From Pontederia crassipes (Eukaryota > Streptophyta > Magnoliopsida > Commelinales > Pontederiaceae), in contig CM060193.1 of NCBI GenBank assembly GCA_030549335.1, positions 57,565,146-57,629,145 on the forward strand: a stretch of 64,000 nt of DNA. Direction: 5' to 3'. Under the pieces are notes generated by a model that saw only the letters and a program-made list of their open reading frames with translations, did not search any database and had not been told where the DNA came from. Below, one piece after another: positions 1,149 through 62,805 of this stretch. A program made the translations under genes and the position numbers. The first letter of the stretch is position 1. Each line of letters starts with the position of its first letter.

Positions 1149-1290
1149 CTAGGAGTGTCATCCGACCCTGTTTGGGGCGAGGGACACTCACCCCGCCCTG
1201 AATCCCCGATCCGGAGGGTATTTTATCCCCCCCTCCCCTCCATCCCCGCGGAGCCCCAAACCCCCGTAGGGACTCGATTCCACCCAATTT
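1149..1290. repeat. GC-rich block like the end of a hAT-type MITE
   Basis: A sharply bounded block rich in runs of C and G (CCCCGCC, GGGGCG) inside AT-rich DNA. The edge reads GTCATCC, as does the edge of the similar block at 9,480-9,650. Many plant genomes carry short hAT-type elements that begin TAGGGATGNCAA and then run into GGGGCGGG-like sequence. The family assignment is from memory and no target-site duplication was identified. Confidence 0.35.
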
Positions 1291-1499
1291 TTTAAATGGA
1301 AATAGTGAAAAAATAAAATATATTTAATATTTATTTTATATATAATTAAATTTAACAAAAATAATTTACACTTCCGCAGAATGTTAAAAAAAGTAAAAAA
1401 TAATAGGCAATCTACCTCTTTTGAATTTCAAGCCGTAAATACATATGAAAAATAATAGCAAATAAAAAATAAAAAATAGCAAGGTGATCCTCTGTGCCC

Positions 1500-2148
1500 C
1501 TTCTGCTGACCTCTCTGACGTCGAGCTCGTCATACTCGAGGCATCTTCGCATTGTCCTTCCCCCTGACCTCCGCGCCCTTTCCTAGGCTCGTTCGACCAT
1601 CCCTCATCCGATCGTCGTCGAGAGCATGGAGCCGGCGCAAGCATCGATGTGACGCATAAAGGTGGATTTTTGGCCGTCACGCGTCCGTCAGTGTCCGTCG
1701 TTGGGAGTGGATCCTCAGAGGGCTGCCAACATCGCCCTCCTAGGTTCGTCTGACCATCCGTCATCCGACCGTTGTTGGGACCGTCGTGCACTTGCGGAGC
1801 GTGGAGCGCTTGCGAGCTTCGCTTGTGCGAAGCTCCAACCATGGCTCGTCCAGCCGTAGTCGGGAGCATGGAGCCAGCGCGAGCATCGCCCTCTTCCAGT
1901 GACGTGACACACAGAGGTGGATCTTCGACCGTCGTTGGACGAGCTCCATCTTCATGATGGAAGGGATCAACCGTCGGCTAGGCTCGTCCGGCCATCCCTC
2001 ATCCGATCGTCGTTGGGAGCGTGGAGGGCCTGTGGAGCTCCTCCTATGTTCGAAGGCTGTCGGCGCGAGCATCGCTTGTGCGGAGCTCCAGCCGTCACTC
2101 GTCCGACCGTCGTTAGGATCATGGAGCCGGCGCGAGCATCACTCTCTT
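1500..2148. repeat. Degenerate GC-rich tandem repeats
   Basis: The phrases CATCCGAYCGTCGTTGGGAG, GGAGCCGGCGCGAGCATC and GGTGGATCTTCGRCCG recur several times in varied order. A further copy of this sequence lies at 7,108-7,240, on the other side of the LTR retrotransposon. The retroelement therefore inserted into, and split, this repeat block. Open frames on both strands here have no recognisable domain and are probably non-coding. Confidence 0.5.
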
Positions 2149-3301
2149 GTCATGGCCGTGACAAAAAGATTCAGCATAGAAAAATTGGCTAAGTTACTGT
2201 CACGGCCGTGACAGTTTCTGTCATGGCCGTGACAAACAAATTCCAGCAGAAATTTGGCTAAGTAATTTTTAGCCTTGACAGCCTTCTATCACGGTCGTGC
2301 CGGAGCCTTTCACGGCCATGACGGCGGTTTGTTAGGTCATTTTCAAACCGTTTTTATCCACTTTTTGGATATATTTTCAGTTTCTTTCCTTGTGGGACGA
2401 GAAAACCTATAAAAGGAGGCAAAAGTGGGCCTGAAAAAGCATCCCTGGAGCATTATTCTGAAGTCTACAAAGAGGAGAAGATCGATGACAATAGCAAAGC
2501 TCTGCCAAAAACTCGAGAGATGACGCGCTTAGCCTACGCTAGAGTTTTTATTTTCTTTTCCCTACATTTTTATTCCAGATTTGATGTTGATTTTCTCAGA
2601 TTTATTCCTTTGTTAGAGTCATCTTAGCTGAACCCTATTTATGTATTGGATTCTTCTTGATATTAATTTAGTTTGAATCTTTAATAGCATTGCAATTTCA
2701 TGTTTAATGCTTTCCTTTGATTCCATGATTTATGATTTGATTGTTATCTGAGAAGAAGTGATTATTTTCATAATAGTTTTTAGAATTGATCTTATTTATT
2801 GCATGTCACAATTAGGGAAATCGAAATAGACTTAATTTGTGTAGTTATTAAGGTGACTTGAGAAAGCCCTTAATATTAATTCCAGTTGAATGCATCTTTT
2901 GATTAATTAGATAAGTTAAAAATCGAAAGGATTGATTTATTCTAATTATTTCTTAAGATAGTAGTTAAAGCCTGAAATATTGGTTAACTGATTTTGGGAA
3001 TTCACTTTGTTATTGATTCAACTAATTTTAAGTTAAGAAAATTCATTACATTATAGTGGGGATAATTAGGTTTCTAATCATCAAATTATTATTTCTCCAG
3101 GTGATCATTTCCTTTATTTTTATTATTTTCTTTGTATTCACATCTGAAAATCAACTATTTTCTTAATTTCTCAGTTAACAATGTTAAAATAAAATCTAAA
3201 TTATTAACCATCCTCGTGGGAACGATAACTCTACTCATTCACTTTATTACTTGAGCGACTAGTGCACTTGCTAGCGTTTGCTATCAATTCTACACGCATC
3301 A
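2149..3301 (+). repeat. 5' LTR, truncated at its 5' end
   Basis: Aligns with 5,952-7,107 almost base for base by eye. It starts inside the LTR, missing the TGATGCACG start and about 215 bp. It keeps the TATA box and the downstream transcribed part and ends CGCATCA directly before the primer-binding site. Confidence 0.85.
2408..2414 (+). promoter_or_regulatory. TATA box of the 5' LTR
   Basis: TATAAAA within CCTATAAAAGGAG. The same motif is at 6,213-6,219 in the other LTR. It is the likely core promoter of the retroelement. Confidence 0.6.
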
Positions 3302-16899: not shown

Positions 16900-19800
16900 T
16901 TAATGCTTCCACCCCTTGGAAAAGCCTTCCTCTGTGTATGGCTCCAAAAATCCAATGAACCGAAAGGAATTGCAGATGCACGAGGAAGAAAAAAATAGTT
17001 ATCTCAAAGACAGACCAAAAGTTATCCAATAAACTGAAAGGAATTGTAGATGCATAAAATGTGAAAAAAAATCCCTGCTACACCATCTTACCTTCAAGCC
17101 ATCTTTAGACCACCGAGCTCCATAGCCTTCGGGAACTCTTATCTCAAAGACAGACTTACACGGTTCAACCAAGTGGATATTCATCCAAGAACAATTGGTT
17201 AACAAGTGATTGATAAACTTCAGTGCCAACACATTCTTGTTGGAGTCTGACGGAGCATTGAAAATAGTTTTTAGAAGTCAATAGGAAGAGAGATGCAACA
17301 TCTAGAACACTAGTGAAAAATACTGCATTGTGGTGTTATAAATCCATAGAATCATACCACTTCCACGACAATCGCCCCACCATCCGTCGCTACACCTGTT
17401 AACATGTTTCGCCAATGCCCTTGCAGCATCAGTTAAAGAACAACCTTTGACCTCCCAGACAAATAATGAATGATAGCACAATCAATTAATATAGCTTTGC
17501 AAATAAAATGAATGACATTATAATGTTTATGGCATCCTACACAATGAATCTGACAAGTAGCTATATATATGTATATATAATATCTCTCTATATATATATA
17601 CACACATATACATAAGAATTGACAACTTGAACTTAAAGCGCCAATTATTGCAGCCATCTTCGCACCATGAATATCTAACCTTGAAAAGTTGAAACTCATT
17701 TCCAGAAATACTCCTAATATAACAAAACAAACCCGTCTCTTGTTAACACCATCTCGAAACTTGTAATTCCAAAGTTATCTGTCCTTCCCAACTTTTATTC
17801 AGATTTCACATTACACAATAATAAACCAAGTTATGAAATCACTATGAAGCAAGACCAACAACAACAAAGCCTTATCCCACTAGGTGGGGTCGGCTACATG
17901 GATCATACGACGCCATTCCGTTCATTCGTTGATCCATGTTCATGAGATTCGACAGGGTTTTACGCTTGCTGTCGGGGCCTAACACAACCCTCCTCCTTTA
18001 TTCGGGCTTGGGACCGGCTATAAAACATAGGCGGCTATAAAACTATGAAGCAACACCGACACAACTAAATTGCATAAGGATTGCAACAAGTGCATCATAT
18101 CCTCTTTATATAAGTGAGGCAAGAATAATTACAATAAACTATGACTAATTAATAGTTCATTACGATATAAATAAAAAATACTAAAAACAGAAGATGGAAG
18201 ACTATCCGAAGTGTGAGAAATCCCTTTACAGAAGCTAAAGAACTTTATCTACTACATAAATTACTGGTTTGACACAAGGGAATATGTATAAAAAGGTTAT
18301 TGCAGTAGTACAAAACTTTAGTGATTGCCCTTTAATGTGGTAAATGATCCATTATATAAGATACAACGAACTTTCAACCATATAGGATATTTAAAAAGGT
18401 ATGACAAAACTTTTTACAACAACAACAACAAAACCTTATCCCACTAGGTGGGGTCGGCTACATGGATCATACGACGCCATTCCGCTCTATTCGTTGATCT
18501 ATGTTCATGAGATTCGACAGGGTTTTACGCTGGCTGTCGGGGCCTAACACAACCCTCCTCCTTTATCCGGGCTTGGGACCGGCTATAAAACATAGGCGGA
18601 GTTATGACAAAACTTTTCACAATATAGAATATTTAATTTATGGCTGGGAGTACATGTGAAATTTCTGAAATTGTATACATTAACAAGTATATTCATCAAA
18701 CATTGAGTCATGTGGGAAAAGATTAACTGAATATGTTGACCATTACTGAAATTACAATGGGAACAATTTAATTAAGTCTCAATTTATTACAACTTTTGAG
18801 GCAAGAAATGCCTCAAGCTTATGTTATTAACATATAAACTAACCATCGCGGACAAGGACTAAAGTACTCACAGTTGGCCGTGTTGGTTTCATAGATGAAG
18901 ATATGAGAAATGTTCTTGGTGGTGGTAGCTCATTTGCAATTGTTCCGGTTGTGTGAGCCATACCAAGAAGACTACCAATGCCTTCATAATGTAGACCCTG
19001 AGAAAAATGTCAAAATCATGTACCAAAAGGAATATCAAATCAATTTGAACCTCAAGTTTTATTTCTCCAAAGCTCCAGGAGATGATCCAACAGAAGTAGC
19101 ATTTGTTTTAGAAGTAGGGTTCTCAATCTATATCGATAATATAAGGATAAGACGGTATATAAACTCCGCCTATGTTTTATAGCCGGTCCCAAGTCCGAAT
19201 AAAGGAGGAGGGTTGTGTTAGGCCCCGACAGCCAGCGTAAAACTCTGTCGAATTTCATGAACATGGATCAATGAATATATTGTGTTTGTCGTTGAAACGA
19301 TATTGCTAAGGATTTTGGGGAAGATCGTAAGGCTACCTTCTTTTTAATTTTCTGATTTGGGCCTAGTCCCTATTATTAATCAATAAAAGTTTGCATGATT
19401 TGACACTCAATTTAAAATTGTTGTATGACTCAAATGTCTAAGGATAATTGTCACTCACGGCTAAAGTATTTCAACCATTAAGGAAAAGTTCATGTTCTTA
19501 AAAATCTCTCCATTTAGGAAAACCATAACATGACCAGATAATTAGGGAATAACTGCATTAAAACTAGAAACACATCCATCCTAAATTTAAACCTTCAGAA
19601 TAGAGAGGCCAAACACTGACCGGTTAATTCATCAGCAGAAGATGTTTATGTTAGTTTTGCAGGTAATATTATAAGTCTGAGATGACTCGATATGCATATT
19701 CCTTTTTCACTCATATCTGGTCAAATTCCAACCAGGTATCATGGTCCTTTAGCAGCTAAATGCTAGGTTATAGGTGAAAGTAGAGAATAGTTGTAAGCTT

Positions 19801-30231: not shown

Positions 30232-33200
30232 TCATGTTTGCATAGGCATCGATATCCTAGGGAGAATAGAATTGGCAAGTTCTTCATTTATCTTCACCGG
30301 AAGTGGTGGCATCTGCTTCATTATTTCAGGCATGTCGCTCAAACTGCACGAATACAAGTATTGATCAGATATTAGACTTGTTAACAAGGAAGCTTATTGC
30401 GACCATTATAAAAGATGTAATTGATTTCAGTATTTTTTTCTTCATAATAAATGGCATCAAATACATGTCAAGCTATGAAGAAAAGGCATTCCACGAAATG
30501 TTGTTGAAGCGGTTGAATAAAGACTAGGAAACAAAGCACAAAGGCTGGAACTAATCCAAAGGGATAAAATTTCATACTTCCATACTAGCAAATTATTATA
30601 CTCCCAAGTCCCAACAGAAGATTAGCAAAAATTACATAGGCAGCTTGTTCCACATAATACCTACCCTACTTGCATAGATCAGACAATATGCGGGAGCTTG
30701 GGCAAAAGTTTCTGATGTTACAAGTTAGAAAAGATTAAAAAGAAAGCTAAATGACATACTCTTTCAAGATGGAGAGTATGTTATCCCTTGTGTCACAAAA
30801 GAGTTTGATATTATCTTGGATCTGCAGAAAAAAAAAAAAACAAGTTAGGATAACTATCTCCGAAAACTGAGTTGCATGCTGTAAATACCTTTTTTTTTTT
30901 TTGAGAAAAGAGAGAGAGAAATGTTGTAAATACTATGTTGCTCACTTTACATGTAGGAACTCAAGAAGTAGCCAATGTACTTGCATTGTGAATAACAAAA
31001 AAATTAAACTCTAGAGAAGATTTAGATGAGGTTAATCATGGATTTTTCATTAAGAAATTTGGTACGTCCAAGTTACTTGAAATTGGCTGGTATTCAGTTT
31101 ATACTTATAATTCTTTGTCAAAAAAATGATAAATTGTACTTTAAGATACCTTTAAGTTGGCCAGATTTGATGATATCTTAGATAAGGCGTCTGAATTACT
31201 CTCTAGCATCTGTCCTGTCCGACCACCAATTGCTGCCAAGACACCAGAAACAAAGGTTAAACAGATAGTAAAAGTTACCCACACTACAATTTCAACTAAA
31301 CTATCAATTAACAACTTAATGGAATAAAAAATGGGACTACATGATTAGCATGACAAGTGGTCGAGTTCATTATAATATCACAACAATGCAATATAATACT
31401 CCAATGGATGAGTTTATGTCCATCTTGTTTTCAACAACATGCTTCATCCCTTCAGTATTTGATTACTTTTGGAGTCACAACAGTGCTGAATAATCAGTTG
31501 CGACTACAGTTGGAAGCCCAAAATATCTTATGTATGTAAAGTTAAAACTCTCCAAAAGGCAGCAAGATAAAGCAAGTATATTTTCAAGTTGCCAAGCTAA
31601 TTAGTAGTGTATTCAAGCAAAGTGTATACTGCAGAGAGAAGAAGAAAAATAATTAGGTTGGGCATTGGCAGAGCGTGGAGACCTCTGATTCTGCTGCACG
31701 GACGTTTGCTGCCAGGCTCCACAGCCTGAGGCTCTTTCTTCAAGACCGATGGAGACTGATCCGTGAGGCTCGGGTGGCACGAAGGACTGAGGCCTTAGAG
31801 ACGATCGCCCACCTTGATCGGGAGGAGGATGCTCGCCATCTCACGGAGGACGAGGTGGCTCAGCGCAGGCAGGCGCAGTCGGCCATACAGTTGAAGGATA
31901 GATTGGTGGAGATTCAGTGGAGGCAGCGCTCCCGGCAGACCTGGCTTCATGAGGGAGATGCCAATACTCGGTTCTTCCACCTTTATGCGAGCTCGCGGCG
32001 GCGGGCAAACAGGATCGATCAGCTCGAGGTGATGGGACAGAGGATTACGGGCCACCATCGCATCGGGACCGCTTGCCTCCTTTCATCGGGACTTCTCCAG
32101 ACGGCGGCCCCCACCGGCTTGGAGTTGGTCTCCTAGGGATGTTACTTGTCTCACTCATGATCAGTCTTCCATGTTAGTGCAGGTCATTACTGGGATGCGC
32201 TCCACGACCTCAACAGGGAGGGGTCCCCCGGTCCAGACGGCTTCCCCGTTTTCTTCTACAGGGAATTCTGGCCAGTGGCGAGGGAGGACGTTATGGCAGT
32301 GCTCCAAGAGTTCTCCAGCGGGAACCGGGGCTTCGAGCGCCTGAACTGGTTCCTACTTTTCATGCTGCCGAAGCGCACTCCAGCGGACAGAGTGGAGGAT
32401 TTTCGGCCGATAGCCTTTCCAACGCCACATATCTCCTGGTGGCTCGGGTACTGGCTAACCGGCTTCGGGAGGTGCTCCCTTATCTCATCCACCCTACCTA
32501 GTCGGCCTTCATCCACGACAGATCCATCACCGACAGTTACTCCATGACCTCGGAGATTCTTGCCCAGTGGAAGCGCAACAGTCGTCGGGCCTTTCTTTGG
32601 AAATTCGATTTTTCCAAAGCTTATGATTCTCTTTCATGGTCATTCCTTTGGTATTCTTTACAGGTGCGAAGTTTCCCTGCGACCTGGATTGCCTAGATGA
32701 AGCGGTGTGTCACCACTGCTTCCTTTTCGGTCCCGGTCAATGGGGCGATGGCTGGGGGGCTGGGTGCAACCTCAGCGTGGTGTCCGACAGGGTTGTCCCC
32801 TTGCACCCATGCTTTTCACGCTGGCGGTTGACGGTCTCGCCAGGTGTACTCAGGAGGCATGTCAGGCTGGCCTTTTCAGTGGTTTTGCCGGAGGCTGGTG
32901 CCTCTACTTCAGTATGCAGACGATACTGTCTTCTTTATCGAGGGATCAGCGGCTGAGGCCAGACGGGTAGCTATTCTGGTGGAGCTTTTCGGCATCACTT
33001 CGGGCCTTCTGATCAACCATGCTAAATCATCCTTCATTCCTTTTGGCATGGTGACGGAGGAGGCTTTGCACTGTGCGGCGGAGTTGCGCACTCCTGTTGG
33101 GGCCCTACCCATCACTTATTTGGGACTCCCGCTATCTGACCGTCATATCGGCTCTCGAAGGTGGACTCCTGTCATTGAGCGGCTGGAGCACCGCCTCGAG

Positions 33201-36200
33201 GGCTGGAGCTCATGGCTTCTATCTAGCGGCGGTCGTCTTATTCTGCTTCGATCAGTACTTTCATCCCTCCATATCTATTTCATGTCGGTGCTCCAGATGC
33301 CTGCGCAGGTATTATCACGGATTGATGCTTTGAGGTGCAAGTTCTTTTGGCAGGGTTGTAGCACTCCCCGTCGGGCTCACCTCGTGGCCTGGAGGTGCAT
33401 TTGTAGGCCCACGTCCCAAGGCGGATTGGGAGTGCGAGATCTCCGATGCACCAACTGGGCACTCCTTGCTCGGTGGGTGGGTCGGATTATGGGCCCCGAT
33501 GACAGCTTATGGAGGGAGGTTTTTTTCACTTGCTACGGACGTGACCTCTCATGGGACTCTAGGCCCACCATCCCACGAGGCGCGTCTTCTCTCTGGAGGG
33601 GGGTGGCGGCTATATTTCCACGTGTTCGACCTTTCATGGCCCCCTCGCTCGGTTCTAGGGAGATATTCTCATTTTGGCATCATGACTGGCTCCCATGAGG
33701 CCCGCTCGCTGATTCTTTCCCCAGGCTACTGGCTCTAGCAACACATCCTGATGCATCTGTGGCTGAGTACTGGTCGGAGATGGGCGGCCCGGGGACCGGC
33801 TCCTGGACTCCCCTTTTCAGGACTCCCCTCTCCGATCAGCGTGTCTCTGATTTACTGGCACTTCACCAGCGGATTGCCCCTTTCCGCCCGCACCCGACCC
33901 GGACGGATGGATGGGTTTGGGTGGCGGACTCCTTCTCCACGCGCAGCCTCTATCTTCGTTTTCTTCCGGCCCCCACCGACTCAGAGGACTTCAGAGCTGA
34001 TTGCCGACTCATTTGGCGGTCCCGTTCGCCGCTGAAAGTCAAGATTTTTGCTTGGCTTTTGCGGCGTGAGCGGATTCTCTCCAGAGTTTATAGGGCGCGA
34101 TGGGCTCCGCATGCTGATACTTCATGTGTTCTATGTGGAGAGACAGAGGAGGACGTTACGCACCTTTTCTTCGGCTGTCGGGTGTCCCGGGAGATGTGGT
34201 CTCAGATGACCATTAATGGCGAGGCTCCCTTGACGGCGGCAGGTTTCTAGCAGGACGCGAGGAGGCTTTGCAGACAGAGTTTGGATTGGAGACGTCCTGT
34301 GGCGACTTTTCTAGCCGGTGCCTGGGCCATCCGGCTCCAGCGCAACCGTGTCATTTTTTGTGGGGAGAGTGTTCAGGTGGATAGTATTGTACATTATATG
34401 TCTTATCTTCTTTGGGAGTGGGGTTTTGGCTAACACCTTTTTGGCTTCTTTTCTTGCTCTCCACTGGAGAGTACTCTTGTGTATATGATGATCTCTTTTG
34501 ATGATATATATATACCTGGATGACAACCTAAGTGGTGGTCATCCTTTCCCTTCTAAAAAAAAAATTGTAACTTGATCGTTCTGATGGAAAGATCACCAGG
34601 AATTTTATAATGCTTGAGCAGTTAGGACATGTTTGAAGAACACTCAAAATAATCATGTAATAAGAAAATAATTGGTAAGTCAATGCAAGATAAACGAGAG
34701 AGGGAATTCCATTTTTAACAAGAAGCCACAGCACCACAAGGTAAACAAATATAAAGAAATACTCAAAATGGAAGAGCATAGCACCTTTATATGATATATC
34801 ATCATCATCTACAGGAGGTGTTGGCAAAGCATAGGGAGGAACATTAGGTCGAGGCCCCAGTTGGGCAGATGGTTTTGATGAAGGGTCTGTAACCCTCTCC
34901 TGTGCACACAATTATCAGTTTTATATCAGGGCTTCAGTAGCAGAGTTATGAAAGAGAGAAACCATATAACTAGTGTCAGTCACTTGTATGAATGGCACAA
35001 CTGCTTTGGCAAATGCAAAGAGAAATGATAGCAATACCTCATTTTAAATCAGAAAGAATAAATTTGAGGAAGCATTCAAAAAATATGGTAAAAAAGAAGA
35101 GAACTTCTGAACTGCTAAATGTTATGTATTTTCTGGGAGTAGCTTTCATCCGAATGTTGCACTAACTGAAGGATACACACATTAATGATATCCAAGCACC
35201 ATTATTTAAAATCAGTCGGTATTTGAGCTTGAATAGGATCCACCATTTGAAATTTTGTAAATCAATCAGGCACACTCGCTTCCTCCACCCCCTCTCCTCC
35301 CTCCCCTCTCAATTCTTCTATGTAATTAATGATATAACAATCCAATACACTGAAGTCTTGTTGGATAAGATGTGCCATAGTTCAGTTATCTAGCGGATGA
35401 ATGTGAGCAATTTGTACATGGTTAAACAAGGTTACTGCACATCCAAGAATGCAACAATGGAATTTTATAATTCAATGTTAGTCTACTTTCAGCACACCTT
35501 TGCCAATACTTTTAATCCTACATGAAAATATCAAATGCAGGTACAAGCTGGAGGAGTTGATCTGCATGGGTTGCAGGTGCCAAGTGTATAGATGTTTAAC
35601 ACAAACCCGCTGAAGCCGCACATCTTTTCTTTGAGTGCAGCGTGATTCAGGAGGTTTGGAGATGGATACATCTCCCAAGCATCTCACTTTCAGCACCCAA
35701 GATGTTCTGGCAGTCTCTTAGAGGCCTTGGTGATAGGGGCAGTCAGAGCTGGAGGACGCTGCAAGCCACTTTTTGGCAGTCACTTGGGCTATTTGGATAT
35801 GGCATAACCGAGTTATTTTTTGTGGAGAAAGATGTCATGTTAAGAACAGTATTCACCATGTTTCTTTTCTCATCTGGAAGTGGGGTTTTGGGTAGCTCAT
35901 CCAACCATCTTTTTCTTTTGTTGTTTTTTTATCCTTTTCCATAGAGCATACACTTGTACAGTTTAATTCCCATAGTAATATACACTGGGATGGCACAACA
36001 ATTTGGTAGTCATCCTTTTGCCTCTCAAAAAAAAATAATCATTATTATTTGTATAATCTCCAAATTCAGCAAGGAGAGCTAAAGCTCCTGTGTCTAATAT
36101 AAAAAGGCCACTGATATTTGCATTATGCATTCCTGTTATGTTGTAGACTTGTGACTTCTCATTTGAGCAAAGTACTGAAGTTGTTAACACAACTGTTACG

Positions 36201-39200
36201 AAAAGAGGGAGAGAGAGATCGCACGAACACAGACGAACACAGAGATTTACGAGATTCGCCCTAAATCAGGTTACGTCCTCGAGCGGCGACTCTTTGTTAT
36301 GGAATAATGATGACTACAAGGATACCAAATAACCCAGCCATCATGGAGTTTATATAGGCACTCTCTTTTACAGATGATAGAAATTATAGACCGACTGGGA
36401 CTTTGAATTAATCCCCTAAAATAAGACACTTATCTCGTGATAAGAAAATAAATCAATTCCGAATCACATACAGAATACTCCTAAAAATTTTCAAGGCATC
36501 ATTTAGGGTTATAACTAGGTTCAGATTCAAGGCAACATGTAGCGAGACCCCCATTGGGGAAATCTGCTGAAGCGCCTGACCAAGAAGGGGGATTATGTAG
36601 AGTTACAACTGGGTTCAAATTCAAGCATTATCAACAACAATAAATACCGAAACAACAAAATTTCCATATGTAGTCTGTTATTTTCATGTTAGGTCCCTTG
36701 CAATGTATAATAATCACAAGAATTATATAGCTCAATGTAAATTTGAATTTCTGAATCGATCTGTGAACATGTGCTTGTTTCATACTATCAGAAAGAAACT
36801 GAAAGATGGAAGATTCTATCCCATGAAAATTGTGATATGCAGTAATAATGTAGAATCAACCTGAATATAAGCCATTACGACTGAAATCAGAGCTGTAACA
36901 AATAAAAAGTAAGCACAGAAATTTTCCGAAAACGACAATGCTTGAAGCCATGTTGGCCCATATGATAGATTTTCATGGGAAAACTGGTTGGTCAGCGTTG
37001 ACTCCAAATTAAAAAAAAAAATCCGTACCAGAACTTTTAGTTGGTCCTTTGTCCTAGATCAGGTTATTACAGATCCTTCTGGGTTCCAAATTCATTCTGA
37101 ACAGGTTCATGTGTAATAATCAAATACAGAAAATCATTCATTTTTATCAACCTCGTCATGGCAGTAGAACAAACACAGATGATAAGTTTATTCATCAGCC
37201 TCAAAGCAAAACAAGTAAAAAATATGTCAAGATCATACAGTGGCTTCAAGGAATGACAAGAACGACTTTCAAAAGCCTCGCTCAAAGCTTAAAGATAACT
37301 GACTAAAGTGACTTTAATTGTTCAGCAAACATAAAAGCATGTGCATGCATCACCCTTCAAAAGAAAGAAGAGAATAAAAGCATGCATCAAAGTTTTAGAG
37401 AGTACTAGCTCTTGCATCACATTTCTAGAAACTAACCTTTTTATCTTTACTTTTCTTTGACAAGTTGCTCTCATCTTTCCTTCTCTTGCCACTTTCCTTT
37501 TTCTGCAAGGAAATTTGAAACTTTCTAATCAGAACTTTCAAAACCATTCAGTGAACCAGTGAATGTATCTCATATGTAAACTTCCAGAAAAGATTATTTA
37601 GGTCTGCACATGACCTAAATGATCCAACCAAGGTTGGGGATTTAGTTTTCGGTGTTTTGCCAGGAAATTGTGCCTTGATAATGCAGGAAGGCAAGATAAA
37701 ACACAACTGATATATGCCTACAAACAACTGTTGTGGCAATAATTTCAGAATTCCTTTTGTGAATCCCTTCAAAAAGAATTCCTTTTGTGAAAGAACAATT
37801 TTCATAATTCTTTCTGCAGTCAGAATATATATTTCAAATATATAAAGATCTTATAATATGTATATATATGTAGCGAATCACAAGACCACAAGTCATCCAA
37901 ATTAATTATATTGCAAGATTGTCAAGATTGCTTTCCAAAGGTAGGATCTGAAGGCCTTCCGAAGATCATAGGAACAGATCGATCTTACAGTATAAATAAA
38001 AAAATATAATTTCAAATTGTGCCTTGATAATGTAGGAAGGCTAATATAAAATACTGCTGCTGTATGCTTACACGCAACTGTTGTGGCAATATTTTTCAGA
38101 ATTCCTTTTGTGAAAGAACAAGTTTCATAATTCTTTCTGCAGTGAGAATATATACAACAACAACAACAACAAAGCCTTATTCCACTAGGTGGGGTCGGCT
38201 ACATGGATCATATGACGCCATATATTCGTTGATCCATGTTCATAAGATTCGACAGGATTTTATGCTGGCTGTCGGGGCCTAACACAACCCTCCTCCTTTA
38301 TCCGGGCTTGGAATCGGAATTTCCTTGCAAACATAGATTTTATGCAGTCAGAATATATATTTCAAATATATCAAGATCTTATAATATATTATATATAGTG
38401 AATCACAAGACCACAAGTCATACAAATTATTATTATATGCAAGATTGTCAAGATCACATTTCAAAGATAGGATCGGAAGGCCTTCTGAAGATCATAGGAA
38501 TAGATCGATCTTAAGTAAAAAAAATATTGTTTCGAACTAAATTTATTTATTCACAACGTTCTTAGATATTAGTTACCTCACAGTTTGCTTCTTGGCCATA
38601 AGTTTTATTAATAAATAAATTTTATTCCATAAGAAATCACAAATTAATTTTCAATTAAAGATTATCAATATAGTATTTCATGTATATGGAGCCCTCTTTT
38701 ATCATTTTTCCTGCAGCATCTTTCATCTCCTTACCAACACTTCTCTTTCTTCTTTTCTCCATCCAAAGTGTTCTGTCCTAGTTCTGCAAAGTGTCATCTT
38801 CATCTCACAACCATGATGCTATGCTGCAAGGATGCTGGCAGCAACAACTACTACAACGAGGAGCTGCTCACTCACACCAATATTCCCAACTGGCATATTT
38901 CAAACCTCCTCTTGCTTTTGCTCACTCTGAGCTGTTGATGGCACACAATCCTAGCGATCTTGATGGAGTTTGAAGATTCCTTGGGGACTACAAAGCTTAA
39001 GTAGTTTGGATCGTCCAATCCTAGTGATCTATTCTTGATCAATTGGCAATCCTTCAATTTTGATCCACAAGGTGGACTCAAGATAGTTAGATGCATTTAG
39101 GGTGGTAAGATCATACAATCTTACAACCTAGAAGGGGATAGCTATCCTAACAACCTCTGTCAATTGGCAAAAAAATATATAAGAAACTGTATGTGATAAA

Positions 39201-52001: not shown

Positions 52002-54026
52002 CTAATCATCTTTTATTACTTCACCCCAACCACTACTGCCCCTAACATACTTATCCACAATACAAAATTCTTTGTTTTGGTGGAGTCGTCTGGCATAGTT
52101 CTCAATGGAAATTGGACCCTTCTTCAACCGTCTATAGTATATTATTTCCCATGGCCACAAGCGAGAAGCACCAAAGTGATCTTCTACACTTAAAGCTGTT
52201 TGTCCTTCAGAAGTTCCTAGTCCATAATGTTGCAGAGCAGAGAATATTTCTTCGCATGTGATATTTGTGGCACCATGTGTCTCGGAAATTGCGGGAACCT
52301 GCTTTTCTGACTTCAAGAGGTGCCTTTCAAGCTGCTCTCTATTCGGTTGATGATTCACAAAAGCAGTAGAATTATCCTGATGAGGTGGAACACTTTCCTT
52401 ACTATCAATGTTTTTATTATGATCAATACTAAATCGGGAATCTCTAGAACTACCACCAATGTGACCAAGCTGTCCCACACCCTTCCCATTGTCCACTTCC
52501 CGCAATGTCCGTGGATCTTCATCTTCTACATTTAAACATGCGCTGTTAGTTTTCTTGTTCTCCAACTCATGGCTTTTCTTCTCCATATTGTTCCTTGGAG
52601 AACTGGTCATGCATGTCTCAGTTTGTTTGTTCTCTGGAGAACAGGGCTTCAGTTCCAGTGAAACAGACAGGGAAAAAGATTTTGAACTGGACCTAGATGG
52701 AGATATAGATCTTGACCTTGATCTGGAGTTCATGGATTTTGAGTGAGGTGATTTGGGAACAGACTTTGAACTGGAAGCAGCTGAGTGAGACCTAGAAGAT
52801 CCACACCTCAAGCGTGAAGAACTTGAAGACGAGATAGTTCCCCGAGACTTCGAATGTGAAACTGAATTGCTTCTAGGTGATTGAGAAGAACGTGATGATG
52901 AACTAGATCTACTAACATGACCCCTTCTTATGGATCTTTTTGAGGGTTTATGTTCCATTTTATATCTTTTCTTGGACTGAGAATCTCCTCTGAGCATTGG
53001 TCGGTTCTCCTTGCTTTCTGGTAAACCCCCCTTTGATCTGGGCAATCTCTCAAACCTTCCAGAATGAGATTCCTTTCTATCACGTTTATGGTGCATTGAG
53101 ATCACTGGATTTAAATTGGCATCAGGTGGTGCCCCTGGACTGTATCTCAGCTTCTCTAACCTTCCTCTTTCCCTGATATCCAATTCTTCTTTTCTGACAT
53201 TAATCTTGCTAAACTTATATCTATGAACAATTGCTTGAGGGCAATTACGCACTATATGACCCATTTGTCCACAGTTATAACAGGTTGGTTGGGGCTTTGA
53301 CATTTCAAAGTTCCTTTCAGTATCATAGTCAGAGTCATTCCTCCATCTTTTCTCCCGAGTTCTCCCTCTTTCCCTCGAACCATATGAGTTATCCATGTTG
53401 ACATTTTCGTTGTCATCCTTGTAACCATGGTAAGGTTCATAGCGATCAAAATCATTTCCATTCTCTTTCCCATGGCTGTTCAATGAGTCAGACACAGGCT
53501 GACCCCACCGATCAGTATCCAAATGATTGACATCACTTGTAACGTTACCATTCACCACTCCTTGTGAAGTTGCATCTTTATCACCTTCAATATCAACAAT
53601 ATCTTCAGTTGATTGAACTGCATCTTTATCAAGTACATCATCCAAATGATGCTTCTCATGATTGTTTGGTGATGCATGAGCAGAAATAGCATTAGGTTCA
53701 GTTTGGCCTTGGGAGTCCCTGATTCCAACACCATTGTTCCCTTCCCCTGAGATTCTTCGATGAAATGGTTCATAAGCCCTGGAAATCCTTGCTGGTATAT
53801 GAAAATGCCGAGGTTGTCTATTTGACCACGTAAGCGAAATTGGTTTTCCACATATAAAAGTCCCCTTCAAATTCCGAAGAGCTCTCTCTGCGTCTGCCCT
53901 TGCTTCATATACTGCAAAGCCATATCCATCTTTGAGTTGTATCCTACATGGTCCAAACCTCTGGAAAACCCGCAGAAGATCCTCTGATCTAACATGAGGG
54001 GAAAGATGACCGACATACAAAGACAT
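52002..54026 (-). CDS. RRM + CCHC zinc knuckle + RS-domain protein (674 aa), SR-like splicing factor
   Basis: Probable nuclear RNA-binding splicing factor. Residues 1-75 form an RRM (RNP2 LYVGHL at 3-8; RNP1 around GYGFAVYE at 34-41). A CCHC knuckle, CYNCGQMGHIVRNC, is at about 249-262. Residues about 355-470 are rich in RS/SR and S repeats. The last 80 residues are a separate, well-structured segment (EEIFSALQHYGLG ... LWPWEIIYYRRLKKGPIS ... SSGWGEV), which I recall from uncharacterised plant homologues. The start is the ATG at 54,024-54,026; the bases just before it read TTGCAG, a splice acceptor, so the whole CDS is one exon behind a 5'-UTR intron. A GC-rich non-coding first exon probably ends at 56,225 (TTAG before GTGATT). 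That intron, 54,027-56,224, contains a SINE. The RRM is shorter than usual because of a tight beta2-beta3 loop, as in plant RSZ proteins. Confidence 0.88.
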   Translation of the reverse strand: MSLYVGHLSPHVRSEDLLRVFQRFGPCRIQLKDGYGFAVYEARADAERALRNLKGTFICGKPISLTWSNRQPRHFHIPARISRAYEPFHRRISGEGNNGVGIRDSQGQTEPNAISAHASPNNHEKHHLDDVLDKDAVQSTEDIVDIEGDKDATSQGVVNGNVTSDVNHLDTDRWGQPVSDSLNSHGKENGNDFDRYEPYHGYKDDNENVNMDNSYGSRERGRTREKRWRNDSDYDTERNFEMSKPQPTCYNCGQMGHIVRNCPQAIVHRYKFSKINVRKEELDIRERGRLEKLRYSPGAPPDANLNPVISMHHKRDRKESHSGRFERLPRSKGGLPESKENRPMLRGDSQSKKRYKMEHKPSKRSIRRGHVSRSSSSSRSSQSPRSNSVSHSKSRGTISSSSSSRLRCGSSRSHSAASSSKSVPKSPHSKSMNSRSRSRSISPSRSSSKSFSLSVSLELKPCSPENKQTETCMTSSPRNNMEKKSHELENKKTNSACLNVEDEDPRTLREVDNGKGVGQLGHIGGSSRDSRFSIDHNKNIDSKESVPPHQDNSTAFVNHQPNREQLERHLLKSEKQVPAISETHGATNITCEEIFSALQHYGLGTSEGQTALSVEDHFGASRLWPWEIIYYRRLKKGPISIENYARRLHQNKEFCIVDKYVRGSSGWGEVIKDD

Positions 54027-55331
54027 CTGCAATCAATTCATACATGGTTGAAAACTATTTTTCAAGAAAGACCTGGATGAAATATATATACATAACATAA
54101 GGCAACCGTAGACTCACTTGAACAAATATCTTCTGGTCTGAGGTATTCAACTCTAGCAGTTAATTGTGATAGCATATGAACACTTATGAAAAGAAAGTGA
54201 CATAGTGCTCGATGCCTTAATGTTCTATCAAGAATAACAGTTTGATCTAAGATTTAACTCATTTGTGCAGTTATGCACTATGCATAGAACACATGCAGTG
54301 TTGCAACACTCTGGGCTACAGATGAAACATGAAGCGTGCATACATCAAAAGCGACAAAATATTATATATGTGTTTTAGTTCATATAAACCATCACATGAA
54401 GTATTTCATCTGTTGTTTAAAGCTATGCCATGAGTAAATTAAGCTCTCTAGTTTTTTAGATAACATAAAAATGTCATATCTAGTAGATGACACTTTTTGT
54501 TAAGGAGTAATATTTAGTCAAGGATATCTCCTCAAAAAGAAAAAAGGAATAGTATTTAGTCAAGGAAAATCATTGGGACTTGAATTGGTTACTACCATTC
54601 CTTGAACATGTAATAAACACCGGTTAAACATGAAAAAATTATCACCTTCATGTAGCCTGACAGAGTGAAGAGAAGAAACAACAGATACAATCAATTACCA
54701 GCCAAGTAAAAGAAAATGCATTAAAATATTTATTGCAACTCCAGAGACCTGTGCTGCCCAATATTTCTCCAACCTTCAGGGCGGACTACCAATTTATTGG
54801 TTCCACATATGCACCTATCTCATAATTATCTATTGCATTGGATGATGATGCAACAATGTATTGCTTTTCTATTAACTTTTTTCTGCAGAGCCAGATGTAA
54901 TTATTATGTTAATAATTTGCATAAAGGGATTCTATCATTTTGAAAAAAAAATGTGATACTTAATAATAGAAATTTCAAGCAAAGAGGATTACAATATCAA
55001 TTAATCCAATAATGTAGTGCCTAATGTAGTAGAAACAACTCTGAACTGAATAATCTTGTGGGGTAAAGTTAATTCCATTTACTCATAACTATTGTCTAAG
55101 GATGTGAATAGTAATTGGTGAAATTCCAACTTAATAACAGAACCTGGCTTTCTCCAAAAAAGAAAAAAGAAAAAAAAAGAACCCGACAACTTCTAAACAT
55201 AAAGGAAAGCTGGACAATGTAACATCCACATAGCATTTAAATTATCACCAGAAATATGCAATTACGCATTGTCTATAAACATGGATCCCTTCCATCATCC
55301 AGGCCTTTTATATTCATGTGTAGAATAAAAC

Positions 55332-55502
55332 AACAACAACAAAGCCTTATCCCACTAGGTGGGGTCGGCTACATGGATCATACGAGATTCGTTGATCCAT
55401 GTTCATGAGATTCGACAGAGTTTTACGCTGACTATCGGGGCCTAACACAACCCTCCTCTTTTATCCGGGCTTGGGACCGGTTATAAAACATAGGCGGAGT
55501 TG
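55332..55502 (-). mobile_element. SINE copy 5, minus strand
   Basis: Target duplication TGTGTAGAATAAAAC is at 55,317-55,331 and 55,503-55,517. It has a short internal deletion after GGATCATACGA compared with the other copies. It lies in the presumed 5'-UTR intron of the RRM/RS gene. Confidence 0.88.
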
Positions 55503-56579: not shown

Positions 56580-58351
56580 GCATGGAAATGGAAGTTATTA
56601 GTGAGAGTTGAAATTTCGAATTCTACTTTACATTATTGTGTAAAAAAATATTTTCTTTTAGCTCATGTCAAATTAATATATTAATTTTTTTAAAATTAGT
56701 CGTGACAGATAAAATTGATTGGAAAATTTTGAAACATTCAAACGATTTATCAAATAAAACAAAGAGAAAAAGGTACAAACAAGTTAATTAGATATTTAAT
56801 ATCCAAACTTATATGGATTAAACATAATTAGTAGTAGTTATTTTTAAAAAAAATTATATTATCTCAATGGTAATATTTATTTATTTGAAATTTTGCATCC
56901 AAATACGTGATGGACATAAGACAATAGTAAAATAATAACTGGTTTCACAAAATAATTCTTAGCATATTTAAATTTAAAGTACTGTTATGAAAAATGTGAA
57001 AATGCTTAAAATTTAAAAACTTTCATAAAATATTTAAGTTTGACCATGATGAAGGATAAACTATTTGTAAAAAAATTCTTGTAAATCTTCATACAAAGTA
57101 GTTAAATTTTTTTTATTTTCAAATAATCATAATATACAAAAATACTATCAAAGTATTCAACTTTCTTTTTCAAAGTTTTATTTTCAACGATATATACATC
57201 TTTTTTTCCTTTTCCAAATTTTTAAAATAATTTTCATATCATTAAATCCTTTATTTTTTTCCCTTTTAGATGATATTTTTGGATGAAAGAAGAGAACTTC
57301 TGATGCATTTAATATTCATATTATCATTCTCGTCATGAGAATTGAATAATAAGAGTATTACATCATCTCCATTTTTTATCATTAAGCGTAATTCAAGAAT
57401 TATTTTTATCTACTCTAGTCATCTTATAAGTGATTCTTCCTTTTTTTAGCAAATTATTTTCTTCATTTGTTTCCCGTTCATACTTAGATACTAAAATTTA
57501 TCAAATATCATATAAATTATAATATTTAAAAGTAGAATTTATGCTCCCTTCCCAATCTCAAAATCGTTATAGATCTACTAACACATTCTTCCTTTGTTAG
57601 GTAAAGAACACACCTCCTCTTTAAAACTTTTCAATCATCTTTTTCTACTTTTAAAAGGTAGGTACATCTGTTATCACAACGAGCTTATCATCGTCATAAT
57701 TAATACAACTCAAACTCTCTCTCTCTCTCTCAAGCTCACACCTAAAAGTAAAGAGGAATATCCAAAACTGATGGTAATATAGTTAAATGTTAAATGGAAA
57801 AATATAATGTACAAAACTATTTTATTTAAATTAAATTTTCACTGTATTTCAAAAACATAAATCAAATCACATTTGCAACATAAAACTTTGTAGATTTGCA
57901 TTATCCATCCTACAAAGGAGGGAGTTTAATGCATCATACAGAGGACAAAAGGCCTCGAGATGAAGTGCGTCTTTTGTTGCTCACTGGTAGCCAGTTTGTA
58001 TGGTTTGCGTGAATGTGTACATCATCCATGAGCAGACGCCCCACACTGGTTTGCAACCATGGAGGACTTCCTCAGTCTGAGTACGTTCACTGTGGTCCGC
58101 GCCTGTGCCAGATGACGCTGGAGGAACACTCCACACTGCTGAAGGCCAGTTCCGATGGGCTACACTTCATCAAGGACAATCTCACCCTGTCGGCGCACGA
58201 ATGGCCTTCTCGGACCTCAGCAAGTGCTGTATCACCTGATAGGAGTTAAACTACCCGTCGTGTTCTTCACACGCCAGACTCAGTTGAGCTGCTCCACATG
58301 TCAATAGTTGCCAGCCGGTCTCCTCTACAGCAATCGCCTGAAGAAAGAGAA
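56580..58351. other. Intergenic sequence; island at 57,950-58,330 unexplained
   Basis: 56,600-57,900 is AT-rich with no gene. 57,950-58,330 is less AT-rich, with an open frame at 58,013-58,249 (+) and open stretches on the minus strand. The base composition suggests former coding DNA, but I recognise no protein. It could be a host-gene fragment or a transposon remnant. Confidence 0.4.
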
Positions 58352-58738
58352 AACAACAACAAAGTCTTATCCCACTATGTGAGATCGGCTACATGGATCA
58401 TATGACGTCATTCCGCTTTATTAGTAATCAAACATTTCGATATATTATTCATCAATAGATCTTGCTCTATTAGTTCGTCAAGTGTTCGTCTTAGCCTCCC
58501 TCTCCCTCTTTTAATCGGACTTTAGATTATTTGATCTACTCTTCTTACTGACGCATCTAATGGTCTTCTCTGAATATGACCACACCATCTCAAACGATTC
58601 TCTACCATTTTCTCACTAATAGAAGCCACTTCGACTCGTTCACGTATATGATCATTCTTAATCTTATCTAATCTTGTATGACCACACATCCATCTCAAGA
58701 GAAAACTTTGGATAAACTCGCATCCACCGGACATTGCA
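58352..58738 (-). mobile_element. 3' end of an RTE-type LINE (reverse-transcriptase C-terminus)
   Basis: Minus-strand translation includes KMVENRLRWCGHIQRRPLD, then VRRVDQ, GRGRLRRTLDE and WRHMIHVADLT before stops, followed by a TTG-type tail. This is the familiar C-terminal end of plant RTE-clade LINE proteins. It is 5'-truncated and has an internal stop. The last stretch of about 60 bp is shared with the SINEs of this window, marking it as the likely LINE partner family. Confidence 0.85.
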
Positions 58739-59308
58739 TTTTTTTATAGAAGATCATTAAAACTTCAGATACGCTGAATTTCAGGTTCATAAGAGCAGCT
58801 GATCATGTTGGATTTTTCTGACTCGGATCCCTGATTCAGAAATTGGAAGTCATGTCGAACAGTTATTAACTTGGAACTGAGAAATGATATCTTCTCATGA
58901 TATAAAGAGATTACTTCTTACTGGAGCCCGGACTAGCAATCACCAGAATCAAAGAGTTGCAATTTCCACTGGCATTGACACAAAATCAGATTCATGTTAA
59001 AATATTTGATGAAAATGCACTGTTTAAGAGGATGCTGACTTTTGAAATAAAAAGGAATTATCATACGAAAGCCAAATGGAAATACATTTGAATATTTACA
59101 AGATCAGAACATTCAAAAGGACTTATGAACATTCATAGGGCTAAATTAAGTTTATCATTTTAGCTTCCATTGTCATAATACCATCAGAAGATTAATCATA
59201 CAGTCTGAATCCACCTCTTGCAAATATCTTAAATTTGATTTCTTGAAGACCACCAGGTGAGAACAAGTGTACACTAAGACACTACCTGATTGTAAGTCTT
59301 ACCTAACA

Positions 59309-59522
59309 ACAACAACAACAAACAACAACAACAAAGCCTTATCCCACTAGGTGGGGTCGGCTACATGGATCATACGACGCCATTCCACTCTATTAGTAAC
59401 AATATATTCGTTGATCCATATTCATAAGATTCGACAGGATTTTACGCTGGCTGTCGGGGCCTAACACAACCCTCCTCCTTTATCCGGGCTTGGGACCGGC
59501 TATAAAACATAGGCGGAGTTAA
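59309..59522 (-). mobile_element. SINE copy 6, minus strand
   Basis: Full-length copy with a long AAC tail. Target duplication AAGTCTTACCTAACA is at 59,294-59,308 and 59,523-59,537. It has an extra TCTATTAGTAACAATATATTC compared with the shorter copies; the same CTATTAGT/TTATTAGTAA phrase also occurs at this position in the LINE at 58,415. Confidence 0.9.
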
Positions 59523-59767
59523 AAGTCTTACCTAACAAAAGATAAATAAAAGTTTATGTTTGTTCACAAAAAAAATAATACTGATCGTTTGTCTGTGAAA
59601 GTTTTATGTTGCATAAACTAAAGGGTGCCTCTATTTCCACTCCAAAAGCACTAATGCCTCCTTTCGGACATTTTTACCCCTATCTAATAAAATGGAATGG
59701 CAATAGAGGCACCCAAACTAAAAAACAAATAGAAAACATCCAAGTCATTTCTTATGCCAGGTTTAGC

Positions 59768-60047
59768 AACAACAACAACAACAACAAAGCCTTATCCCAC
59801 TAGGTAGGGTCGGCTACATGGATCATACGACGCCATTCGTTGATCCATGTTCATGAGATTCGACAGGATTTTACGCTGGCTGTCGGGGCCTAACACAACC
59901 CTCCTCCTTTATCCGGGCTTGGGACCGGCTATAAAACATAGGCGGCTATAAAATGGATAATAAGAGAAATAAATTTGTCACATACAGACGTACCTCCTTC
60001 CATGCAGATTCTGATAACCGAAGATATATTGTTAGAATTACACATCC
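59768..60047 (-). mobile_element. SINE copy 7 with about 100 bp of extra 5' sequence
   Basis: The SINE proper is 59,768-59,945. An 18-bp direct repeat, CTTATGCCAGGTTTAGCA, lies at 59,750-59,767 and again at 60,048-60,065, i.e. 102 bp beyond the SINE 5' end. The inserted unit therefore seems to include extra DNA (59,946-60,047) that is not part of the other copies. Confidence 0.8.
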
Positions 60048-60065
60048 TTATGCCAGGTTTAGCAT

Positions 60066-61062
60066 TTAATAGAAATTTCAGGACATTGATTTAGTTGTCA
60101 ACTTGTCATCAAATGTTTACTGCTAACATCAACCCCTCAAAAAAAGTCAAAATTCATTCAATAGTTCAAAGCATAGCCACAGATTATAGAACCAATGGCA
60201 TTAGCCATTAAGGTACACGGCCATTATTTATAACTACAATCCACCTTATATGTTGACAAAACCACAAAGTCAGCAGTGTAATTTTCTGTCAAAAATTATA
60301 GGCATAGATATTATCTCAAAGCCTGTGCAGACCTGTGTATTTTGTGTCCATCATGTTCCTAGTATGGAATAAATAGATCTTACATTAAAGCACATTTTTT
60401 TAGTGAACCTACATGGAAGAGCTTGGCAACACTATGTACATATACATATGCTCTTTATACAGCATTCTCCGATAATATAATATGGATTTCCTAAAATGTA
60501 TTAGAATGGCCTTTCAGATGAAGTAGTTCTAACAAACACTTGAGGATCTTGCTTAAAGAAAACAGTAATCCAGAGGGAATCCACAGAAGTTCTTAACAAA
60601 GAAAAAGTATACGTCCAAAATTGACATTTGCTTCACAGTTATCTTATTTGAGTCTCTCAGCGTCGTCCACTCCACAAAGACATAATCTTTCACTGTTCCT
60701 CCAAGGCTCCAATTTGTCAATTTATGCTCTGACATAATTGATTATTTTGTTGTATTGTTTCTATTCTATTGAAACTTGTGAATTTTTTAAGTTTATTATT
60801 ATGGAGAATTCTTCAATCTTTAAGAACTAGTTCTACTGATAGAAGCTCAAGAATGGACAATACTCATCAGGACAGGACATGTTTCATGCTTTCTTTGAGA
60901 TCAAATAACTAGAAATGTTTCTGTTTCAAGAATGAACCTGAATAACTCAATTATATGGTAAAATTCAATGAAAACAATACAAAATTTGCCATGGCGCACC
61001 TTTGTCTCCTCATCAGTTGAAATTCCAGATTTAGCCATAAGCCTATGAATGTTAATCCCTAT
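60066..61062. other. Region downstream of the PPR gene
   Basis: Probably includes 3' untranslated sequence of the PPR gene. A 60-residue minus-strand open frame at 60,553-60,735 (includes GGTVKDYVFVEWTTLRDS) looks protein-like but matches nothing I know and is short. No gene is called. Confidence 0.4.
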
Positions 61063-62724
61063 TCACCAGTTATCCCTGCAATTGCAACGACCATCCTGAA
61101 ACCTATGATACCTATTGGCATCCCTCACCACAATCTCCCTCTTAATTACTCTATTGACACACTTAAAAAATTCATGACAGTCAGCACAGATCCTCAAATT
61201 CTTCACAATCCTCATTGTCTTCCCTTCTGGCACAGAACCACTCACCATGCCAAAAGCCAGTGCCAACCTCTCACTGTGGCACCAAAGCCCGGCATCATCT
61301 TCTTGGTGGCCTAACTCTTTGACTTCCTCTGTCAGCTCCCTCAGCTTGGCGTATATCTCAACTATCTTTTCATGCTTCCTGTCCCCTGAGATAAATGCAT
61401 GCACCTCTCCCCTCACTTCAATCCAACTCCTCCCACCTTCCTTCTTCACACCCCGGTCTCTCATCTCTGTCCACATCCCTGCTCTGTCCTTCATTTTCCC
61501 TGCTGAAGAGTATACATTTGCCAGCATAACATATGCCGAATCATCATTTGGGTTGATCTCTAAGAGCCGTCGGCCAACAGACACAGCCATTTCAACTGCA
61601 CGATGCACTACACAACCAGAAAGCAGGGTCCGCCAAACAGCAGCATCAGGTTCAAAGGGCATAGACAATGCTGCGTGCTCTGCATCCTCCAAGCGCCCTG
61701 TGCGGGCCATTGCACCTATCAAGCATGTATAATGTTCCACACCGGGTGCCACCCCAAAACGTGAGCACATAAGTTCAATCCAACTTTTTGCTTCATCCAC
61801 CAACCCAGCATTACTACAAGCAGTGAGCAGTCCCAAGAACGAATACTCGTCGGGCCGCATGCCCTTCCTCACCATCTCATCGAAGATCTCAAATGCTTCT
61901 TTAGAATCGCCCTGTTGCGCGTACACTGACAGCATTGCATTCCACGCAACAAGATTAGCATCCTCGACCAATCCGTTGAATACCATCCTCGCATCAGACA
62001 CGATACCAGCTTTCCCATAAGCATCCACCAGTGCAGTCCCAACAATAATATTACAATCCAATCCGGTTGCAATGGCATGCGCATGGATCACTTGGGACTG
62101 CTCCAGCGCCGCCAGCTGCGATGCTGCACGTAGCGCCCCGGAGATGCTGTACATGGTGGAGGACACGCTGTCGAAGTGCATGGAAGCAAAAACTGAGAGT
62201 GCGTCACTGGGGCGACGGTTCTGGGCGAGGCCGACTACAGCGGCGGCGTAGCAGACTTCGTCCCTGCTGGGGATATCATCGAGCGCGTGGAGGGCGTCCG
62301 CGGGGCGGGCCGCCTTGGAGTAAAAATGGACAAGGGCAGAGCCGGCGAAGGGAAGGCGTACAAGGGCGAGCTTAAGGGCCAGAGCGTGGATCTGGATTCC
62401 GGCAGAGAAGAGGCGCGGGCTGGAGGATGACAGTGATTTCAGGAGCGCGGAGACGGTGGCCTGGGAAGGGCGAGGGGAAGAGGGGTGGCAGAGCATGGTC
62501 GCGAGAACGCGGACGGCGGCAGGGGGATCGGCGGAGTGAGCAGAGACGAGGGCCGTCCATGAAACGGCGGAGGGCGGGAAAGGGAGGCGGCGGAAGAGGC
62601 GAAGGGCGGCGGCAGGCGGGTAGAGGGAGACGAGGCGGTTGTAGAGGGCGCGGTCGAGGGAGGCCACCTTGATCAGCCATGCGTGGACAGCTGAAGGGTC
62701 CTCCGCCGGCCTTGTCGTCACCAT
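61063..62724 (-). CDS. Pentatricopeptide repeat protein, PLS class with E and DYW domains (553 aa)
   Basis: An organellar RNA-editing factor by family: PPR motifs bind a specific RNA and the DYW domain is a cytidine deaminase. It is intronless, as is common for PPR genes. The ATG at 62,722-62,724 is in a strong context (GCCGCCATGG). PPR repeats fill about residues 30-400 (for example VAWNAMLSVYAQQGDSKEAF, then RPDEYSFLGLLTACS). The E region follows, then a DYW domain with HSE at 483-485, CADC at 513-516 and CNC at 547-549. It ends DNW rather than DYW. The part just before HSE is shorter than usual (ELGHQEDDAGLWC), and a typical PG box is not evident. Total length is also short for a DYW protein. 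The coding region has a steep GC gradient, highest at the 5' end, as in monocot genes. The target site is unknown. Confidence 0.92.
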   Translation of the reverse strand: MVTTRPAEDPSAVHAWLIKVASLDRALYNRLVSLYPPAAALRLFRRLPFPPSAVSWTALVSAHSADPPAAVRVLATMLCHPSSPRPSQATVSALLKSLSSSSPRLFSAGIQIHALALKLALVRLPFAGSALVHFYSKAARPADALHALDDIPSRDEVCYAAAVVGLAQNRRPSDALSVFASMHFDSVSSTMYSISGALRAASQLAALEQSQVIHAHAIATGLDCNIIVGTALVDAYGKAGIVSDARMVFNGLVEDANLVAWNAMLSVYAQQGDSKEAFEIFDEMVRKGMRPDEYSFLGLLTACSNAGLVDEAKSWIELMCSRFGVAPGVEHYTCLIGAMARTGRLEDAEHAALSMPFEPDAAVWRTLLSGCVVHRAVEMAVSVGRRLLEINPNDDSAYVMLANVYSSAGKMKDRAGMWTEMRDRGVKKEGGRSWIEVRGEVHAFISGDRKHEKIVEIYAKLRELTEEVKELGHQEDDAGLWCHSERLALAFGMVSGSVPEGKTMRIVKNLRICADCHEFFKCVNRVIKREIVVRDANRYHRFQDGRCNCRDNW

Positions 62725-62805
62725 GGCGGCCGCATAGGAGAAGGCCGGCAAGGCGCGGGTGGGTTATTTCCAAAGTTTTCGTGGAATGGCAAATAATATA
62801 ATATA

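Follow-up and report, generated by a model that had tools for sequence, protein, structure and literature searches.

The window, as the whole stretch of DNA analysed here is called, is 64,000 nucleotides long and comes from Pontederia crassipes. It holds a PPR-DYW gene (61063-62763, minus strand), a sequence for an SR-rich protein with an RRM and a zinc-knuckle (52002-54032, minus strand) and what is left of another LINE, with matches to RVT_1 and zf-RVT (31657-34250, plus strand). A piece of an RTE-type LINE is also present, and a leader of about 110 nt, here called the head, is found in seven short, SINE-like copies, six of which also have a tail of about 60-76 nt (Table 1). TSDs flank six of the seven head-bearing copies as well as the LINE piece.

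Table 1. Features of the window that consist of parts of the RTE-type LINE. Junctions are given as left|right LINE nucleotide.
Feature	Positions	Strand	Remarks
Insertion of an RTE-type LINE, truncated at its 5' end; the C-terminal coding part and the 3' tail remain	58355..58696	-	Flanked by TSD GTTTTCTCTT
Bipartite copy B: LINE nt 1-121 and 3090-3165, then TTG repeats	59310..59522	-	TSD TTGTTAGGTAAGACTT
Twister-P1 match, head of copy B	59466..59525	-	62.8 bits against a family cut-off of 67.2
Bipartite copy A with 5' extension of about 100 nt (59946-60046)	59769..60046	-	One TSD, TGCTAAACCTGGCATAAG, encloses both; junction 111|3104
Twister-P1 match, altered head of copy A	59895..59954	-	46.0 bits
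Bipartite copy	17853..18041	-	Junction 115|3099; TSD
Bipartite copy	18415..18602	-	Junction 112|3095; TSD
Head copy, tail gone save for a TTG-like remnant	19163..19294	+	No clear TSD
Bipartite copy, 5' end diverged	38155..38342	-	Junction 117|3106; TSD with 1 mismatch
Bipartite copy	55333..55502	-	Junction 115|3111; TSD TGTTTTATTCTACACA

The LINE piece corresponds to nt 2819-3165 of the full-length element at 94% identity, and a Pfam search of it found no family above its cut-off. An earlier, sequence-only reading of this DNA had placed a LINE at 58,352-58,738; the element is real, and the insert proper is the shorter, approximate interval of Table 1, bounded by its TSD. A paralogous segment on contig C12, which matches in four blocks (93-94% and 84-92% identity), is without the LINE, copy A and copy B. 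There, the flanks overlap by 10 bp at the site of the LINE and by 18 bp at that of copy A, one TSD each, and the empty site of copy B is less clean than these two. Since a TSD flanks the window LINE and its paralogous site is empty, it is a single insertion, and a chimera with a SINE inserted at its end, which would have undone the earlier reading, is excluded.

The central claim of that reading, that the SINE copies share their 3' end, last codons included, with a local RTE-type LINE, holds: the last 54-76 nt are common to the window LINE and the six tailed copies at 88-91% identity. The tail motifs lie where they had been placed, with six window matches to GAATGGCGTCGTATGATCC (at most 3 mismatches; 0.02 expected) and seven to ATGTAGCCGACCCCACCTAG (0.00 expected), one in each set being the LINE piece itself. 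The window LINE does not read EWRHM as stated; in frame it is E-stop-RHMIHVADLT-stop-WDKTLLL, with TGA in place of TGG. The SINE copies that had been reported are there, although five of the seven with a head fall outside the interval that had been described.

The parent LINE was sought in the window's own assembly (1.13 Gb, 43 contigs). Among 20 loci with LINE similarity taken from it, three (L017, L026 and L027) are full-length elements of 3,164-3,166 bp, in which the start AACTCCGCC abuts the TSD; at the 3' end the tail is followed by TTG repeats, and GCTTTGTTGTTGTT there by the TSD. A fourth full-length LINE, L072, came from the head sample described below and likewise matches nt 1-3165. 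Full-length RTE-type LINEs with the 3' end of the short copies, as the earlier reading would lead one to look for, are present in the genome in these four loci. Pieces of the LINE ORF match RVT_1 (E 3.7e-28 and 1.3e-34), and the start codons are situated within the head. As is usual for LINEs of the RTE clade, endonuclease and reverse transcriptase (RT) are found in one ORF (the Exo_endo_phos match being weak and below the family cut-off), the tail is a short repeat and the TSD is variable. The parent LINE is called RTE-type because of this architecture and because plant RTEs have a (TTG)n tail (PMC3747384).

Both tail forms are found genome-wide: at LINE nt 3109 the TGG form has 3,730 exact 35-mers and the TGA form, which leads to a shorter ORF, has 1,651. 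Exact 35-mers number 8,658 for the leader core, 15,267 for the tail and 997 for the LINE just past the junction, the ratio of these counts being rough because the three sequences decay at differing rates; the reversed sequence of the leader core had no exact match. At three loci (L005, L008 and L009; G000:C6:4524298-4530957) a piece of the LINE tail is part of a tandem array whose repeat unit measures about 3,151 bp. No copy of the motifs was found in viral and prokaryotic sequence collections, and a string search of the literature gave no match for the leader. A peanut marker primer (PMC6368304) has 15 bases of the tail, which may thus occur in a legume.

The heads of the short copies map to LINE nt 1 to about 120 and their tails to about 3090-3165. 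The 5' part of the SINE, which had been taken for a Pol III-derived body, is the first 115 nt or so of the same LINE. With the true 5' and true 3' ends of the LINE and the middle missing, the short copies fall under the definition of bipartite non-autonomous RTEs. The head also gives a candidate match to a self-cleaving RNA. The Rfam covariance model twister-P1, which has a gathering score of 67.2 bits, gives E-values of 1e-13 for copy B and 6.9e-9 for copy A, the bit scores of both copies being below that score. In the LINEs there are eight matches in seven loci (53.8-67.7 bits, E 1.2e-13 to 1.3e-9), and the gathering score is reached by one LINE locus, L031 (67.7 bits), and by no window head. 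The twister core motif is intact in the heads, while stem P1 is absent; its 5' strand would be unconserved flanking DNA. Twister cleaves at a U-A step of which the U is not conserved, and P1 is dispensable (PMC5408937).

The position of this match is what ties it to the ends of the elements. The A of the U-A cleavage step is nt 1 of the element, and the predicted cleavage position (the U-A step before AAC) coincides with nt 1 of both LINEs and SINEs as defined by their TSDs; L017, L026 and L027 all begin at this position. Of 78 bipartite copies in a genomic sample, 76 were tested and 45 had a TSD of at least 9 bp; in 33 of these 45 the TSD ends at LINE nt 1, with an offset of 0 to 2 allowed for the AA that opens the element. 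The base preceding nt 1 varies among the 45 (T17 A16 G9 C3). From match and position we infer that the twister would set the 5' end of the LINE RNA and of the short copies. A 2020 review (PMC7761336) announced, as "in preparation", that RTE retrotransposons have truncated, active twisters at their 5' end, so twister in RTEs is not first seen here.

How the heads and tails came to be joined can be read from the junctions. The sample was drawn from the first 100 places of the twister-core 35-mer, of which 90, all on contig C1, could be retrieved, and loci were counted by genomic position, so that identical sequences stay separate. Of these 90 head loci, 78 are bipartite, seven continue into the LINE and five are otherwise built: two have an inverted head beside a LINE tail, one is joined to LINE nt 1973, one keeps a TTG remnant only and one ends at nt 107. 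Intermediate deletions are rare (1 of 90). The 78 bipartite copies have 52 different junctions, 38 of them found once; with the six window copies there are 53 in 84. The commonest, 111|3104, is seen in 10 of the 78 and lies within 4-5 nt of microhomology. Diverse as they are, the junctions are focused: the left edge is at LINE nt 109-121 in 69 of the 78 and the right edge at nt 3086-3112 in 70. Microhomology at the junctions averages 1.44 nt, compared to 0.79 nt expected (p 0.0002, n=68). One short copy, L034, stops at LINE nt 3144 or so, without TTG repeats and with the TSD abutting; its reverse transcription apparently started inside the tail.

The focus of the junctions can be compared with a predicted RNA duplex. 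For leader nt 98-117, the best partner in the whole LINE is a set of windows starting at about nt 3105-3112 and reaching nt 3127 or so, at -19.6 kcal/mol compared to -13.1 to -13.7 for the next best elsewhere, and this was seen in all three LINEs tested. By reading, the predicted helix joins nt 100-113 to nt 3112-3126 in 14 bp with one bulge; the 14-bp bulged hairpin also appears when copies A and B are folded in silico, and the helix ends where the junctions lie. Its perfect 10-nt core was equalled in 26-30 of 2000 shuffles and in none of 90 internal windows, and a duplex test of whole leader against whole tail gave no significance (z -1.3, 0.07, 0.03). In view of these two results, the case for the helix rests on its rank and on the junctions starting where it ends.

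Taken together, the short repeats are probably bipartite, non-autonomous, internally deleted derivatives of one RTE-type LINE, made for the most part directly from LINE RNA. The earlier suggestion of a SINE that borrows the RT of the LINE had the link to the LINE right and understated it, since the LINE itself seems to have given rise to most copies by deletion. In the proposed mechanism, a LINE transcript would arise by read-through or from a promoter of its own, and the 5' twister, if active, would trim it just before nt 1. The LINE reverse transcriptase would then start at the TTG-ended tail, copy about 55-80 nt and, in many insertions, leave the template near nt 3086-3112, re-enter the leader near nt 109-121 and end at nt 1. 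The predicted helix could keep the landing site beside the polymerase. The product would be an insertion of about 180 bp with both true LINE ends and a junction of its own, and a minority of short copies would be copied from short copies rather than from LINE RNA. We favour a tail-to-leader jump guided by the helix, whether within a single RNA or between two. The full proposal, that thousands of SINE-like copies of about 180 bp are made de novo, mostly without SINE master genes, with the RNA ends held by the leader-tail helix and each copy a fresh RT jump to a ribozyme-made leader, we put at about an even chance.

The two-RNA form of this jump is a serious possibility, if not the one to bet on. 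A separate leader RNA of about 120 nt, with a ribozyme-made 5' end and a 3' end near nt 120, would pair with the tail in trans, and the RT would jump to its 3' end. This would account for the 76 copies, out of 78, in which the left edge lies no further than nt 121. It would also suit three LINEs with inverted heads (L014, L035 and L059), in which the inverted piece starts at nt 117-120 or so and is joined to the LINE near nt 1-5; by eye, the target has no visible complementarity to the RNA beyond. In both of two copies checked, a second partial head stands directly before nt 1 (nt 1-26 in L036, about nt 4-17 in L048), as would be expected if the RT had jumped from the end of an RNA that stops at nt 1. 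Against two RNAs stand the copies that extend to nt 134, 137 and 180, and the leader RNA itself would be a hypothetical molecule with no known source.

Unlikely, though not without some points in its favour, is a usual SINE family, in which a few short masters, born of an old deletion, are amplified, with a hypervariable loop in the middle that each round of reverse transcription shortens. Among 21 pairs with identical heads the junction differs in 19 and is shared in two, which rules out strict descent of all short copies from one short master. For pairs with at most one head mismatch, it is shared in 6 of 91. The sharing expected by permutation is 2.0-2.3%, so close pairs share somewhat above chance (p 0.06 for identical heads, 0.045 for at most one mismatch), and one junction-sharing pair also has a common tail substitution. 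Copies with heads identical to that of full-length L017 differ among themselves in junction, the 53 junctions in 84 copies are hard to square with few masters, and copies with junctions 180|3102, 137|3088, 118|3057 and 134|1973 retain a longer part of the LINE than a short master could plausibly have had. On the other side, the head variants usual in short copies are a minority among LINE 5' ends (154 vs 1,114 exact 35-mers), which calls for either older LINEs or lineages of short copies; C at head nt 95 is found in 47 of the 78 short copies.

One lineage of short copies is that of copy A. Its form is found at five loci, where extension, head and junction are common over 265 nt (97-100%) while the flanks differ, so short copies can serve as templates. 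The extension occurs without the head at three further loci (82-90% identity), always beginning at the same point, and has no Rfam match up to E 5; it is a repeat in its own right. In the head of copy A the first nucleotides, and with them the ribozyme score, are altered. A bipartite copy gained some 100 nt of sequence upstream of its head, and the resulting form then moved by itself. Such a 5' addition is the route proposed for the origin of chimeric SINEs from bipartite RTEs in animals (PMC7245038). Since close relatives mostly, and not completely, differ in junction, both processes occur: most short copies look like separate births from LINE RNA, and a minority look copied from short copies.

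Least tenable, and very improbable, is a Pol III-derived SINE of Au type that gained the LINE tail, which would explain the shared 3' end and the TTG tail and runs into a head that is the LINE's own 5' end, a best A/B-box score of 11 out of 18 points that 260 of 300 shuffles equalled, a tRNA search of the window that found none and an Rfam search of window positions 57600-60600 that matched twister with no tRNA, 5S or 7SL match up to E 5. With no internal boxes above chance and no head of these three kinds, a tRNA-type or classical Pol III identity was rejected. The Au SINE is a plant repeat similar in size to the short copies. The Au-type label proposed earlier does not fit either, for plant RTE LINEs and the tobacco TS SINE end in TTG, like the window copies, whereas Au-like SINEs end in poly(T) (PMC3747384), and no LINE leader was found reported for Au in the literature examined.

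Several known systems resemble parts of this one. Bipartite derivatives are called common for RTE and can acquire 5' heads from non-coding RNAs (PMC7245038), a gain that the extension of copy A resembles. The non-autonomous families described there, such as those within hagfish SINEs, likewise have RTE 5' and 3' ends with the internal part missing; what differs from them is the plant host, a head with a candidate match to twister, a junction that varies between most copies and the predicted leader-tail helix. In the MINE chimeras of Magnaporthe, 28 different sites in 33 chimeras with TSDs were put down to RT template switching (PMC2104539), and the individual junctions here can be attributed to the same process. 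The 5' part of MINE is a host RNA (WEIRD), however, its LINE lengths range from 230 to 5461 nt and there is no microhomology, while here both parts are LINE (the extension of copy A being the exception), both edges fall within narrow ranges and there is more microhomology than expected. The tobacco TS SINE and its RTE partner (PMC3747384) are likewise from a plant, with an RTE 3' tail of about 100 nt and TTG repeats, but the TS head is tRNA-related with A and B boxes, unlike the heads here. The twister announcement (PMC7761336) also has a truncated twister at the RTE 5' end and proposes 5' processing; its accessible part does not describe short copies and their 5' ends. Bipartite RTEs are therefore already in print and twister in RTEs is announced. 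Among the open-licence PMC papers searched, we found none with junction diversity copy by copy, a leader-tail helix or short copies whose 5' end is set by a ribozyme.

As a rule, SINE families are traced back to master genes. The short copies of P. crassipes are not a Pol III SINE of Au type that borrowed its tail; they are bipartite RTE copies whose 5' end a ribozyme would set, and most of them seem to arise straight from the LINE. Their abundance (8,658 leader 35-mers compared to 997 past the junction, a rough ratio) appears to be largely generated by the LINE itself. If this is true, such a "SINE" would reflect, in its copy number, its age and its phylogeny, the activity of the LINE and RT jumping, not SINE lineages, and a "SINE family" could be a by-product stream of its LINE instead of a lineage. 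The leader-tail helix would then be a testable physical cause of bipartite RTE derivatives, and twister would be given a clear natural role, that of setting the 5' end of LINE RNA.
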